Under the pieces are notes generated by a model. It saw only the letters and a program-made list of their open reading frames with translations, was not told the DNA's origin and searched no databases. Shown in pieces: positions 49,096 to 54,343 of a DNA stretch of 64,000 bases. How positions within the stretch are numbered: position 1 is the stretch's first letter; each line of letters begins with the position of its first letter. Made by a program: the position numbers and the translations under genes. The stretch is taken from contig NZ_JAENGP010000003.1 of NCBI RefSeq assembly GCF_016595155.1, positions 186,001-250,000 on the forward strand. The letters run 5' to 3'. This stretch comes from Advenella mandrilli (GTDB lineage: Bacteria; Pseudomonadota; Gammaproteobacteria; Burkholderiales; Burkholderiaceae_B).

Positions 49096-49479
49096 ATGTT
49101 TCGAATGATGATGAATAGCAAAATTCACCGCGCTCAAGTGACCGAGGCGAATTTGGACTACGTCGGCTCTGTCACCATCGACCAGGATATCCTGGACGCC
49201 GTTGGCATGCTGGCCAATGAAAAGGTGCATATTGTCAATAATAATAACGGCGCCCGGCTTGAAACCTATATTATCCCGGGCAAGCGTGGCAGTGGCGTGA
49301 TTTGCCTTAACGGTGCGGCAGCCCGCCTGGTTCAGAAAGGCGACATTGTCATTATTATGTCTTATGTTTATGTTGATGCCAAAGAAGCCGAAACTCATCA
49401 ACCCAAAGTGGCCATCATGGGTGAAAACAACCGCATCAAGGAAATTATCGGCGTCGAGCCCGAAGCGACCATTATGTAG
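49096..49479 (+). CDS. panD: aspartate 1-decarboxylase
   Basis: 127 residues from ATG 49096 ([20 protein letters not shown]). Gly24-Ser25 in [10 protein letters not shown] is the self-cleavage site that forms the pyruvoyl cofactor, in the same position as in the E. coli enzyme. The product beta-alanine feeds pantothenate and CoA synthesis. [11 protein letters not shown] and [12 protein letters not shown] are further family motifs. panB and panC are not adjacent. The IscB element begins 16 bp after the stop codon, so panD is intact. Confidence 0.97.
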
Positions 49480-49494
49480 TTTAAACAGTCAATC

Positions 49495-49625
49495 ACCCCG
49501 CCCTGAAGGGCGAGGCTTGTGGTGTTAACACTTCACAGGCCTGAGATTGTCCAGACCGAGTGCTTAGGCACTATGTTGTACGTAAGTCCGTAGACCCACC
49601 CTGGGATGCTTCCTCAGTCCCAGGC
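49495..49625 (+). ncRNA. candidate omega-RNA scaffold of the IscB element
   Basis: The stretch between the left-end hairpin and the first codons of iscB folds repeatedly: cgccct/agggcg (49499-49512), tgtggtg with caca around ttaa (49519-49536), agtgc/gcact (49559-49572), and cctggga/tcccagg (49600-49606 with 49618-49624). The loop of the last hairpin contains ctcag, complementary to ctgag at 49541-49545, a possible pseudoknot. In IscB systems the omega-RNA lies just here and its guide comes from the DNA to the left of the left end. Confidence 0.5.
49499..49512. repeat. left-end hairpin of the IscB element
   Basis: CGCCCTGAAGGGCG, a six-base-pair palindrome with a two-base loop, matching the right-end hairpin at 13 of 14 positions and sharing its flanks. 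Confidence 0.75.
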
Positions 49626-50994
49626 CCTGGAAATCACCGCTGCAGACACGCTTCGGGTAAGCACGAAACGGGCGGTGATTCATCGTCATATGCCGTTGGT
49701 GATTCGATTAAAGGATCGCCGCCGGGATGAGAGCGCCCTTCAGCCGGTGCGCATCAAACTGGATCCCGGCAGTAAAACAACGGGCGTCGCAGTCGCGCGA
49801 GAATCAAGCACTGTTAATCCGGATACCGGCGAGGTTCAGCGCCAGGCGGCTGTACTGGCTTTAATTGAGCTGGTGCATCGCGGCCACCGGATTAGCGAAG
49901 CGCTGACCGCCCGCCGACAGATGCGCCGTCGCCGCAGGGGTCAATTACGCTACCGCGCACCCCGATTCTTAAACCGCAGCAAACCTAAAGGCTGGCTAGC
50001 GCCATCCTTACAGCATCGGGTAGATACCACGGCAGCCTGGGTGACACGCCTGTCCCGTTGGGCGCCGATCACGGCCTTGAGCTCAGAGCTGGTGCGCTTT
50101 GATATGCAACAGATGCAAAATCCGGAGATTTCTGGCGTCGAGTATCAACAAGGCGCCTTGGCGGGGTACGAGGTGCGTGAATATTTACTGGAAAAATGGG
50201 GGCGCAAATGCGTGTACTGCGATGCGACTCAAACGCCGTTACAGATTGAGCACCTTCAACCCCGGGCACGCGGCGGCTCAAACCGGATCAGTAACCTGGC
50301 CCTGGCGTGTGGCCCATGCAACCTGAAAAAGGCTGCCCAACCCTTGAGCACTTTTTTAGCCAAGGATCCCCTAAGATTGGCGCGGATTCAAGCGCAAGCC
50401 AAGCAACCGCTGCGGGACGCGGCAGCAGTCAATGCTACCCGCTGGGCGCTGGCGCAAGCGTTAAAGTCCACCAGTCTCCCGCTGGAACTGGCCTCCGGTG
50501 GCCGAACGAAATACAACCGCACCCGGTTCAGCATACCAAAAACCCATGCCCTGGATGCCGCCTGCGTTGGAGAGGTAAGCGAAGTGACTCAATGGCAGCA
50601 GCCCACCTTACAAGTAAATTGTACCGGGCGAGGTAGTTACCAGCGCACCCGCCTGAATAAGTACGGTTTCCCTCGGGGCTATTTGATGCGCCAAAAATCC
50701 GTCAAAGGCTTTCAAACCGGCGATCGGGTACGGGCTATCGTACCGGCCTCCAGCAAAAAAGCAGGTACGTATACCGGGCGCGTCGCCGTCAGGGCCGCCG
50801 GCAGCTTCAATATTCAAACCGGTAGAGAGATCGTGCAAGGTATCTCGCACAAATACTGCCGAATTATTCAACGTAGCGATGGCTACGGTTATACAAGGAT
50901 AGCCTACTTAAAAGGAGACGCAGGAATTGGGCATGGTTACCATGCCGCGCTATCCCTCCCCGCCCTAAAGGGCGAGGTTTTCCGCGCAAGTTGA
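49606..50994 (+). CDS. iscB: IscB RNA-guided HNH/RuvC endonuclease
   Basis: 462 residues. Domains in order: short N-terminal PLMP-like part (1-45), RuvC-I with Asp53 (IKLDPGSKTTGVAV), Arg-rich bridge helix (103-120, RRQMRRRRRGQLRYRAPR), RuvC-II with Glu161 (SSELVRFD), HNH domain with zinc Cys202/205/235/238 and catalytic His216 (QIEHLQPRARGGSNR), RuvC-III with His314 and Asp317 (KTHALDAAC), then a C-terminal target-recognition part. All nuclease residues are present, so it may be active. The last codons (SLPALKGEVF) run through the right-end hairpin, as usual for this family. The first beta strand of the PLMP domain is missing or upstream of an in-frame TAG at 49591. Confidence 0.92.
   Translation: MLPQSQALEITAADTLRVSTKRAVIHRHMPLVIRLKDRRRDESALQPVRIKLDPGSKTTGVAVARESSTVNPDTGEVQRQAAVLALIELVHRGHRISEALTARRQMRRRRRGQLRYRAPRFLNRSKPKGWLAPSLQHRVDTTAAWVTRLSRWAPITALSSELVRFDMQQMQNPEISGVEYQQGALAGYEVREYLLEKWGRKCVYCDATQTPLQIEHLQPRARGGSNRISNLALACGPCNLKKAAQPLSTFLAKDPLRLARIQAQAKQPLRDAAAVNATRWALAQALKSTSLPLELASGGRTKYNRTRFSIPKTHALDAACVGEVSEVTQWQQPTLQVNCTGRGSYQRTRLNKYGFPRGYLMRQKSVKGFQTGDRVRAIVPASSKKAGTYTGRVAVRAAGSFNIQTGREIVQGISHKYCRIIQRSDGYGYTRIAYLKGDAGIGHGYHAALSLPALKGEVFRAS
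50961..50974. repeat. right-end hairpin of the IscB element
   Basis: CGCCCTAAAGGGCG, direct-orientation counterpart of the left-end hairpin, inside the last codons of iscB. Confidence 0.75.
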
Positions 50995-51018
50995 TGATGA
51001 CAAATGGCAACATGTTGC

Positions 51019-51032
51019 TTGATGTAGATCAT
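51019..51032. promoter_or_regulatory. FNR/ANR-like site upstream of the copper-receptor operon
   Basis: TTGATGTAGATCAT matches TTGAT-N4-ATCAA at nine of ten defined bases. It lies 63 bp before the DUF2946-like gene. The related receptor NosA of Pseudomonas is induced under denitrifying conditions, which would fit. Confidence 0.45.
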
Positions 51033-51094
51033 GCCAATCATTAAAACGTTTTTCATGAATTGACGCTGAATATGGGCATTATTAGAATTCAGTA

Positions 51095-51517
51095 ATGCCC
51101 AACACCTTAAAACCATATAAGCAGACACAGCACCTGAAAGCACGTATTGCCGCCTGTTTTCTCTTGCTTGCCCTGGTATTGCGCAGTCTTATCCCCATTG
51201 GTTATATGCCAGCATCCCAGGCCTCGGCATCGGGGTTCATGACCTTAACCATCTGTAACCCTGAACACGGTTTTTACACAATTCAGGTTCCCATTAGCGA
51301 TACCGGCACCGTCGGCAACGAAACCCCGCTTGCTAACGAATGTCCTTATGGTATTCTGGCACAGCAGTTTTTTATTGATCCGCCCCCGATACCAACACCG
51401 CTTATTAGCAAGCCAGCCACGGCCAGGCCATTTTCATTTAAAAACACCCACTATCCGGTTTTCAATATCCGCGGTTCCCCTTTGGGCCCGCGCGCGCCAC
51501 CTTCTGTACTTTCCTGA
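51095..51517 (+). CDS. DUF2946-like small exported/membrane protein
   Basis: 140 residues. A single N-terminal hydrophobic segment (AACFLLLALVLRSLIPIGYM, near residues 19-38) is followed by a short Ser-rich part and LTICNPEHG, then a Pro-rich tail. The LRSLIPIGYMP and Cys layout resembles DUF2946 proteins, which commonly sit beside copper-receptor genes. A second Cys (NECPYG) follows. It lies 142 bp before the copper-receptor gene. Role unknown; copper binding or handling in the periplasm is inference. No clear ribosome site is visible. Confidence 0.62.
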   Translation: MPNTLKPYKQTQHLKARIAACFLLLALVLRSLIPIGYMPASQASASGFMTLTICNPEHGFYTIQVPISDTGTVGNETPLANECPYGILAQQFFIDPPPIPTPLISKPATARPFSFKNTHYPVFNIRGSPLGPRAPPSVLS

Positions 51518-51659
51518 CTCCCTCTCCGTTATTTCGCCTTGTCTTGCCCGATATAAGTCCTGATTTTGCTTGCCCGTTTTTTGTGCAGGCGCCTTGTGCT
51601 GCATCCTTTACCGGGTAACGAGAAGCAAAGCTGATGCAATTTTCAACAAGTACAGAAAC

Positions 51660-53693
51660 ATGAAACCCTTTAACCATCCCCCTATTTTCAGGCATTCCCT
51701 GCTTTCATCCACTTTATTACTGGCCATGACGGCATCTGCCATGGCCCAGGATACCAACAAGGTTACCCGGCTTGAAACCATTCTGGTTACACAGGTCGCC
51801 CCAGACTTCCCGCTTACCTATACCACCAACCCCAAACTTCCCCGCCAGCCCATTCCCGCCAGTGACGCCACCGACTACCTCAAAACCATTCCCGGTTTTT
51901 CAGCCCTGCGCAATGGCGGCTCCAATAGCGATCCTGTTTTACGCGGCATGTTCGGATCACGCATCAATATGCTGGCCAATGGTTCCAATATGCCGGGTGC
52001 CTGCGGTGGACGCATGGATAATCCGGGCTCATACATTGCGCCCGAGAACTTTGATGAACTGACCGTTGTAAAAGGACCGCAAACCGTTATCTGGGGGCCG
52101 GGTGCCTCGGCGGGAACCGTACGCTTTGACCGCAATCCGCCCGTTTTTGAAGAAGGTAAAAATATTAATTTCGAGGGTTCTTTAGTGGGCGGCTCATGGG
52201 GCAGGAATGACCAGACCGCCGATATTGAAACAGGCAATGACAAATTTTATGCCCGTGTCACCGCCAACCACTCACACGCCCAGGACTACAAAGATGGCGA
52301 TGGCAACAAGGTTCACTCCCACTGGGACAAATGGAATGCCGATCTTTCCCTGGGCATTACGCCCGATGCCAACACCCTTCTTGAATTAACCGCCGGTACC
52401 GGTGATGCCAAGACCGCCTACGCGACCCGCGGCATGGATGGCACAAAATTCAAGCGTAAAAGCTATGGGCTAAGATTCAAAAAACAAAACATTGGGACTG
52501 TGTTTGATGAGTTTGAAGCCCATCTTTATTACAACCAGGCTGATCATGTCATGGACAATTTCCGCATGCGGGACTACACCATGAAAATGGAATCCAACCC
52601 AAGGCGCACAACCTGGGGAGGCAGGGTGGCTGGCACCTTCCGCTTCAATGACAATTTAAGCCTGGTCACCGGCCTTGATTTCCAGAAAAGCAAACATGAG
52701 CTGCGCAAATTTGCACGCAACGGAATGGAATGGATTTCCGCCACCGAAATGCCCTGGCAAGACAATGCCAAGTTCAGCAATACTGGCCTATTTGGCGAAC
52801 TTGTCTGGCAAACCTCGGCATCAGGCAAACTGATTGGCGGCCTGCGGCTTGACCGGGCTACCGCCAAAGATTACCGGGCAGGTTCGCCCAGCAAAGGCCA
52901 TAAACGAGACGACACGCTTACCAGCGGCTTTATCCGCTACGAGCATGAGCTTAACGATATGTCCACCACGGTCTATGCGGGTCTGGGTCATGTCGAACGT
53001 TTCCCCGACTTCTGGGAACTGGTTTCTCCCGGTGCCGGGCCCGAGGGTTCAGTCAACGCCTTCAGGGGGATCAAGCCTGAAAAAACAACCCAGCTTGATT
53101 TTGGTGCCCAATACAAAGGCGAACACCTGGAAGCCTGGCTTTCCGGCTATGTTGGTTATATGAAGGATTTCATCCTGTTTGACTATGCTTCATTAGGTGG
53201 CGGCGTTAAACAAGTACGTAATGTTAATGCCCGCATTATGGGAGCAGAAATGGGTGCCTCGTATGAGGTATCCGACCAACTCAAGCTAAACGGCACTTTA
53301 GCCTATGCCTGGGGCAAAAACAGTGATGACGGCCGCCCCATGGCGCAAATTCCGCCGCTTGAAACACGCCTTAGTGTCCAATATGATGACGGAATCTGGT
53401 CGGCCGGTGCCTTATGGCGCCTGGTGGCACCGCAAAAACGATATGCCACCAACCACGGTAATGTTGCCAGCAAAGATTTTGGGCCCAGTGCCGGCTTTGG
53501 CACACTGGCCCTGAATGCCGGCTATGCGTTCAATGACCGGGTCAAACTTACCGTAGGCATCGACAACCTGTTTGACAAAACCTACAGCGAACACCTGAAT
53601 CTGGCGGGTGTCGGTGCTTTTGGCTATGCCGCCAACACCCGTATCAACGAACCCGGCCGCACTGCCTGGGCAAGGTTAAACATCAAATATTAA
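51660..53693 (+). CDS. TonB-dependent copper receptor (OprC/NosA family)
   Basis: 677 residues from ATG 51660. A Sec signal (residues about 1-30, ending AMAQ) precedes a plug domain that has LRGMFGSRINMLANGSNMPGACGGRMDNPGSYI near residues 90-122 (in pieces), the hallmark of the copper-receptor subfamily, and LTVVKGPQTVIWGPGASAGTVRF. The barrel ends in a C-terminal aromatic-type strand (ARLNIKY). The Met/Cys-rich plug segment is where OprC binds copper. The open frame extends upstream to 51570 but without a signal peptide at its start. It would import copper across the outer membrane. Confidence 0.92.
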   Translation: MKPFNHPPIFRHSLLSSTLLLAMTASAMAQDTNKVTRLETILVTQVAPDFPLTYTTNPKLPRQPIPASDATDYLKTIPGFSALRNGGSNSDPVLRGMFGSRINMLANGSNMPGACGGRMDNPGSYIAPENFDELTVVKGPQTVIWGPGASAGTVRFDRNPPVFEEGKNINFEGSLVGGSWGRNDQTADIETGNDKFYARVTANHSHAQDYKDGDGNKVHSHWDKWNADLSLGITPDANTLLELTAGTGDAKTAYATRGMDGTKFKRKSYGLRFKKQNIGTVFDEFEAHLYYNQADHVMDNFRMRDYTMKMESNPRRTTWGGRVAGTFRFNDNLSLVTGLDFQKSKHELRKFARNGMEWISATEMPWQDNAKFSNTGLFGELVWQTSASGKLIGGLRLDRATAKDYRAGSPSKGHKRDDTLTSGFIRYEHELNDMSTTVYAGLGHVERFPDFWELVSPGAGPEGSVNAFRGIKPEKTTQLDFGAQYKGEHLEAWLSGYVGYMKDFILFDYASLGGGVKQVRNVNARIMGAEMGASYEVSDQLKLNGTLAYAWGKNSDDGRPMAQIPPLETRLSVQYDDGIWSAGALWRLVAPQKRYATNHGNVASKDFGPSAGFGTLALNAGYAFNDRVKLTVGIDNLFDKTYSEHLNLAGVGAFGYAANTRINEPGRTAWARLNIKY

Positions 53694-53710
53694 GGTATGC
53701 CTGCCAAAGC

Positions 53711-53740
53711 AAAAAGAGGCCCCCTGCCTCTTTTTGTTTA
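53711..53740. terminator. bidirectional terminator between the copper receptor and response regulator genes
   Basis: A perfect 10-bp stem aaaaagaggc (53711-53720) with gcctcttttt (53726-53735), loop ccctg-like, with A- and T-runs on the two sides. It serves both convergent genes. Confidence 0.9.
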
Positions 53741-54343
53741 TAGTTTCATGCAGGCCTGGTTAACCGCCCGCACGAATTCAGGCAGATTGTCCACCTGCAT
53801 TTTCTGCATGGCACTGGCTCGCTGGACTTCAACCGTACGTACGGCAATATACAGCTCATCGGCAATCATCTTGTTGGTTTTACCCTGCAAAACCAGTTCA
53901 GCAACCTGTTTTTCCCTTGGCGACAAAGACGCATAAAGACTTCTTAAACGACAGCAAAGCAAGTTCCGTTCTGCCTGCGCCTGCGCATTTTCAAGGGCGA
54001 CGGCCATTTGGGCAAGGGAAACCGGTTTCTGCAAAAAATCCACCACTCCTTTTTTCAGCATTTCAACCGCCATGGGTACATCGGCATGTCCAGTAAGAAT
54101 AATAACGGCCAACGTACTTTTTGCTTCAATTAAAAGCTGGTAAAGCTCCTGTCCGCTTAAATGAGGCATGCGAATATCAAGAATAACAACCCCTCCCTGA
54201 TCAATCTGGGCCCTCTCCAGGAATGTGCAGCCATCGGGCCAGGTAAAGGCATCATAACCAAGGCTTTGCAACAAATACAGCAACGCCTCTCTTACCGAGA
54301 CATCATCATCAACAATATGAATAGGCAAGGTATCCGGTTTCAT
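53738..54343 (-). CDS. FixJ/TtrR-type response regulator (receiver plus LuxR helix-turn-helix)
   Basis: 201 residues. The receiver has the acid pair DDD (12-14), phosphorylation site Asp56 (VVILDIRMPHLSG), Thr84 (ILTGHAD) and Lys106 (FLQKPV). The C-terminal LuxR-type DNA-binding domain is near 135-195 (LSPREKQVAELVLQGKTNKMIADEL). Its start overlaps the sensor kinase stop by four bases, so both are made together. The kinase's tetrathionate-sensor-like input domain and the divergent cytochrome genes point to control of thiosulfate/tetrathionate metabolism. Confidence 0.92.
   Translation of the reverse strand: MKPDTLPIHIVDDDVSVREALLYLLQSLGYDAFTWPDGCTFLERAQIDQGGVVILDIRMPHLSGQELYQLLIEAKSTLAVIILTGHADVPMAVEMLKKGVVDFLQKPVSLAQMAVALENAQAQAERNLLCCRLRSLYASLSPREKQVAELVLQGKTNKMIADELYIAVRTVEVQRASAMQKMQVDNLPEFVRAVNQACMKL

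Follow-up and report, generated by a model that had tools for sequence, protein, structure and literature searches.

IscB (OMEGA/HEARO) insertion behind panD in Advenella mandrilli with a 191-bp deletion between 12-bp direct repeats

Directly behind panD in Advenella mandrilli, a long open frame with every catalytic residue of an IscB nuclease raises the question of whether the IscB element there is intact, as a first-pass annotation made from the letters of the sequence had proposed. In undamaged members of the family, the omega-RNA begins with a guide that comes from the left flank of the element; in the family model, IscB is translated just behind the terminal hairpins of the omega-RNA and cuts the empty allele, and this cutting keeps the element when a Y1 transposase moves it in trans. 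We analyzed a stretch of 64,000 nucleotides (the window; coordinates count from its first nucleotide) and compared the element with sister copies in the same genome and with related loci. The element is very probably a non-autonomous IscB (OMEGA/HEARO) insertion that has lost 191 bp between 12-bp direct repeats and most likely no longer works as an RNA-guided nuclease.

The element and its frame

The insertion measures 1510 bp by its deduced ends (Table 1), and the GTCAA with which its left end starts was also found at the start of the left end in all eight IscB loci inspected. Near either end lies one copy of a 23-nt direct repeat (21/23 identical, 91%), each copy able to form a hairpin, as the first-pass annotation had noticed; no other direct-repeat family was reported within the element when the minimum length was set to 11. 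Several copies have subterminal hairpins and defined ends in common, and in this respect the element is IS200/IS605-like. The 462-aa frame matched the NCBIfam equivalog guided_IscB (NF040563; E 1.5e-119; score, 398.8 bits; cut-off, 175) as well as Pfam RRXRR and HNH, and D53, E161, H216, H314 and D317 were located in the motifs LDPGSKTTG, SSELVRFD, IEHLQPR and PKTHALD. The frame combines a split RuvC, an Arg-rich segment, an HNH insertion and the catalytic residues, and both the IscB identity and the residue positions first assigned to it were upheld. The solved structures closest in sequence were TbaIscB and HfmIscB, with further IscB entries, including OgeuIscB, coming next. A promoter and terminator scan of the element gave one promoter-like site (shuffle mean, 1.2) and two terminator-like sites (shuffle mean, 2.0), neither count being above shuffles.

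Table 1. Features of the IscB insertion and its surroundings (window coordinates)
Feature	Position	Strand	Remarks
panD, aspartate 1-decarboxylase	49096..49479	+	Left neighbor of the insertion; TIGR00223, E 2.6e-56, match from residue 8 of the listed ORF
IscB element	49488..50997	+	Starts GTCAAT..., ends ...GTTGATGA; ends placed by blocks shared with sibling copies and by scars with the same two ends
Truncated omega-RNA (HEARO) gene	49488..49679	+	5' stem loops and 5' core-stem strand kept; 3' core-stem strand, pseudoknot strand and terminal hairpins gone
Left-end hairpin, part of omega-RNA	49496..49518	+	Direct-repeat search; HEARO alignment
Chimeric IscB frame, 462 aa	49606..50994	+	~21 leading codons stem from the omega-RNA; the rest is IscB, entered just past the PLMP domain
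Catalytic residues in chimeric frame			RuvC-I D53, RuvC-II E161, HNH H216, RuvC-III H314/D317
Deletion junction	49668..49679	+	One ACGGGCGGTGAT left of the two in C17
Right-end hairpin	50958..50980	+	Direct-repeat search; 91% identical to left hairpin
DUF2946 gene and TonB-dependent copper receptor	51095..53693	+	Outside the element; not between panD and response regulator in G002 and G004
Response regulator	53738..54343	-	Directly after panD in G002 and G004; function named from sequence only

The deletion relative to the sister copies

The genome (3.28 Mb, completeness 100) is a draft of 38 contigs. An IscB search in it returned, besides the window copy, two 5' parts, each cut off by a contig end (C12 and C17; protein identity to the window copy, 93 and 94%) and two 3' parts at contig ends (C10 and C21; protein identity, 95%). 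The DNA identity of the two 5' parts to the window copy was 91 and 94%. The simplest reading, with the 5' and 3' parts left unpaired, sibling residues ~264 to 334 outside the sequence covered and no copy in this genome seen whole, is that there are three IscB copies, two of which are split by the assembly. The first-pass annotation had suggested looking for further copies, and two were found in this way.

From 49487 to 49679, the window copy is collinear with C17 and C12, and the alignment then jumps by 191 bp (for C12, MAFFT gives 190 bp, one base fewer). The C17 sibling (L007) has two exact 12-bp direct repeats, ACGGGCGGTGAT, 191 bp apart, and recombination or slippage between the two would have removed these 191 bp. 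Relative to its siblings, the window copy is missing first the remainder of the omega-RNA (with the CGTACAAC strand, the GGTC pseudoknot strand and the terminal hairpins predicted there), then AAAGGAG, then TTG and last the domain FVVDRHGKPLMPCHPARARQLLRQ. AAAGGAG lies ahead of TTG in the lost DNA, which codes for FVVDRHGKPLMPC...; the two are the likely ribosome-binding site and the likely start codon of the siblings. The PLMP domain is present in both sibling 5' parts and in the congener G004 and is deleted in the window copy; with this domain, the start codon and the 3' omega-RNA gone, the description of the nuclease as "intact" and "complete" had to be given up.

The ATG at 49606 with which the window frame begins lies within the omega-RNA. 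In the siblings, the same frame stays inside the RNA gene until it meets a stop and never reaches IscB, so that the seemingly complete gene is an accident of frame and the ATG frame a fortuitous one. The profile matches begin late (IscB model from position 24, RRXRR from position 23), and these model start positions agree with N-terminal loss. Possible in-frame starts of a shorter protein are GTG at 49675 and ATG at 49690, and no good ribosome-binding site could be discerned by eye in the window copy.

The leftover RNA gene matched the Rfam HEARO family (RF02033) at 49488 to 49711 with 71.7 bits (E 5e-14; gathering score, 83), and a scan of the whole window at gathering level listed nothing. 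The siblings scored 94.3 and 90.2. Since L064, another family member, also falls below the cut-off (79.7), the HEARO score alone proves nothing; upstream of the window frame, a score under the cut-off is joined by the loss of the 3' part itself. The strand GTTGTACG is retained at 49575, and its pairing partner CGTACAAC, present in both siblings, was not found between 49480 and 50000. The region from 49480 to 49625, where the first-pass annotation had expected a small RNA, corresponds to the Rfam HEARO RNA, of which only the 5' part is left. Against a loss of function, this leftover RNA still folds better than shuffles (z, -2.36; C17, -3.65).

A mis-join among multi-copy elements might also have left a 191-bp gap in a draft assembly, and the other two copies stop at contig ends, which is common for repeats. 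The window copy, however, lies inside a 283-kb contig and differs by 4 to 9% from its siblings in the compared parts, enough for reads to be placed. Assembly words are also as a rule far longer than a 12-bp repeat. We consider such an artefact quite improbable and take the deletion to be genuine.

Expected activity and age of the damage

In the available text of the OgeuIscB study, the PLMP motif touches RuvC and RNA, the PLMP domain binds the terminal hairpins, PLMP-motif mutations lowered cleavage, and a substitution in the nexus pseudoknot loop abolished editing (PMC9640706). In that of the IsrB study, nicking was abolished by deletion of the PLMP domain and reduced by truncation of SL7/8, and the Shine-Dalgarno sequence lies within a terminal hairpin (PMC9581776). 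The window deletion takes out the counterparts of all these parts together. The RNA is without its 3' core-stem strand, pseudoknot strand and terminal hairpins, and the gene has lost the PLMP domain together with the likely ribosome-binding site and start codon. From the lost counterparts and the published effects in orthologues, we infer strongly that RNA-guided activity is lost; the window copy most likely no longer functions as an RNA-guided nuclease. The element keeps its two ends and could still serve as a transposase substrate.

A natural IscB that still acted on DNA after one deletion had taken both its PLMP domain and the RNA hairpins that match it would, if real, be a contemporary parallel to the loss of PLMP in the descent of Cas9. 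In favor of this, the partner modules of protein and RNA were lost jointly here, the catalytic residues and an open frame were kept with few non-synonymous changes, and Cas9 is without PLMP as well, according to the available text of the IsrB study (PMC9581776). However, the 3' core-stem strand and the pseudoknot strand went with them, no good ribosome-binding site is visible, and in IsrB the loss of PLMP put an end to nicking in the same text (PMC9581776). An active nuclease of this kind is therefore highly unlikely, and loss of activity remains our preferred reading.

Over 729 nt, with G004 as the fourth row, the window copy had 6 synonymous and 3 non-synonymous changes of its own (C17, 3 and 5; C12, 16 and 4); over a further 375 nt, it had 1 of each kind (C21, 1 and 4; C10, 4 and 3). 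The window-specific changes gave no sign of relaxed selection, the counts being small and too few to decide; together with a remainder of ~440 codons free of stops, they fit recent damage, but a selected product would show the same. As no stop interrupts the remaining frame, the deletion is probably recent.

The window copy is an ordinary member of the known IscB/HEARO family, and probably a recently damaged one; its decay is instructive without being a surprise. A frame may stay open and keep all its catalytic residues and yet belong to a broken OMEGA system, which a check of the RNA and the N terminus against sister copies reveals; mining of IscB ORFs by catalytic residues alone would pass the window copy as usable. 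Among the titles listed by a literature search on IscB and pseudogene, none was about this nuclease, and a search on IscB and Alcaligenaceae returned no paper.

Among 37 related loci (13 from the genome search and 24 of 54 from a contig scan, one pair being the same contig), PLMP was found in frame upstream in 25 and a variant (ALMP, PLNP, PLDP or similar) in 9, while 2 were cut by contig edges and 1 (L083) was frame-shifted there. HEARO was present in 11 of 13 chosen loci, above the gathering score in 10 and below it in L064; the other two loci, in which HEARO was not found, are the scars treated further on. In L083, from a Modicisalibacter luteus scaffold, 9 residues precede a stop and the matching N-terminal segment lies in another frame, and this locus is probably a degraded IscB copy. 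Another genome of the same family (G013; 2.7 Mb, 2 contigs; for example, L015, L032 and L039) held at least 16 IscB matches in a search that scored 16 of 48 candidates; of the matches listed, 10 cross two stops and 6 cross none. The same genome had three Y1 transposase matches, one of them a fragment.

Insertion site, mobility and scars

In the congeners G002 and G004, the response regulator follows panD after ~20 and 38 bp, respectively (protein-match ends, stop codons included). In the window, this interval spans 4258 bp and consists of the IscB element, the DUF2946 gene and the copper receptor. Because the response regulator stands almost directly behind panD in G002 and G004, the panD region is an insertion, as the first-pass annotation had it, and not a conserved host locus. 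No IscB was found at the panD site of G002, G004 or G008, and the element is not in the same place in all relatives. As to an empty site at panD, the element is missing from G002 and G004, but the comparison spans the whole 4258 bp, the adjacent copper-receptor cassette is missing there too, and no IscB-only junction can be read. The right flank (50985 to 51600) had no match in nine same-genus genomes, in a search run without a positive control, and a plasmid search with the segment from 49450 to 53760 gave no match at megablast sensitivity. Matches from a phage search (56 records) were set aside, all being below 60% identity and the best ranked at 48.9%. A DUF2946-like match also adjoins the copper receptor in G006, G007, G010 (weak) and G017.

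The first-pass annotation had seen no tnpA, and a search for Y1 transposase (PF01797) confirmed this, with 0 matches in the genome (a draft of 38 contigs, so that a copy may lie between contigs). Five of 14 control genomes were positive in the same family search, as were 6 of the 10 genomes in a second set; 8 genomes of the second set bear IscB, 5 with a Y1 match and 3 (this genome, G019 and G034) without. Because no Y1 tnpA was found in the genome, the element is non-autonomous at best. According to the available text of one study, only few HEARO nucleases come with TnpA (PMC9755519), and its absence beside IscB is usual. Six TnpB zinc-ribbon matches were recorded in the genome (C6, C37, C5, C2, C3 and C36), despite the lack of a Y1 match.

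The congener G008, in which no IscB match was found, carries a Y1 tnpA beside a divergent tnpB (PF01385, PF07282), and 21 of 22 bases (CCGCGCTATCCYTCCCCGCCCT) at the right end of this IS are in common with the IscB right end, a likeness that would fit mobilization in trans by such an IS. Behind panD, G008 (L041 from 1936 on) has a piece that matches the tnpB side of the IS in the same genome at 76 to 84% identity, so the panD intergenic spot has taken up OMEGA-type elements at least twice.

The window copy shares with IscB/HEARO (OMEGA) elements the protein family, the HNH in a split RuvC, the 5' omega-RNA, the end hairpins and the usual lack of an adjacent tnpA, but not the PLMP domain, the start site or the 3' part of the omega-RNA. 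Its right end resembles that of IS200/IS605-type insertion sequences, but it has no Y1 tnpA, nor was one found elsewhere in the genome. Internal-deletion derivatives of insertion sequences keep their ends and have their core deleted between short direct repeats. The window copy is like them in both respects, but what remains after its deletion is a long open frame with the look of a complete gene. The earlier proposal of a non-autonomous IS200/IS605-type unit stands as regards the similar ends, the two further copies and the missing tnpA, but has to be amended to an internal-deletion derivative.

Two 48-bp single-hairpin scars (L011, C11:177689-177736; L012, C31:69440-69487) consist of the IscB left end fused to the right end via the shared hairpin. 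At the orthologous places in G002 and G008, the hairpin is missing (75 to 87% identity, with alignments loose at the junction), the divergence being too great to read an exact junction, and in G004 only pieces of the two scar regions matched (70 to 79%). The other proposal of the first-pass annotation was a nuclease that the host has kept. Taken as one with a chromosomal role at panD, it would account for the open frame and for the lack of a Y1 match in the genome. Against it stand the congeners without IscB at this site, the further dispersed copies and two scars in the genome, and the broken RNA and start region; we found it unsupported and give it very little credence compared with a decaying insertion. 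On the simplest reading, each scar would be what a deletion from one direct hairpin to the other left of a former full element; alternatively, they may represent a minimal transposed unit. One internal deletion and two single-hairpin scars show, on a small scale, how IscB decays in a genome where no transposase was detected. The scars resemble solo LTRs.
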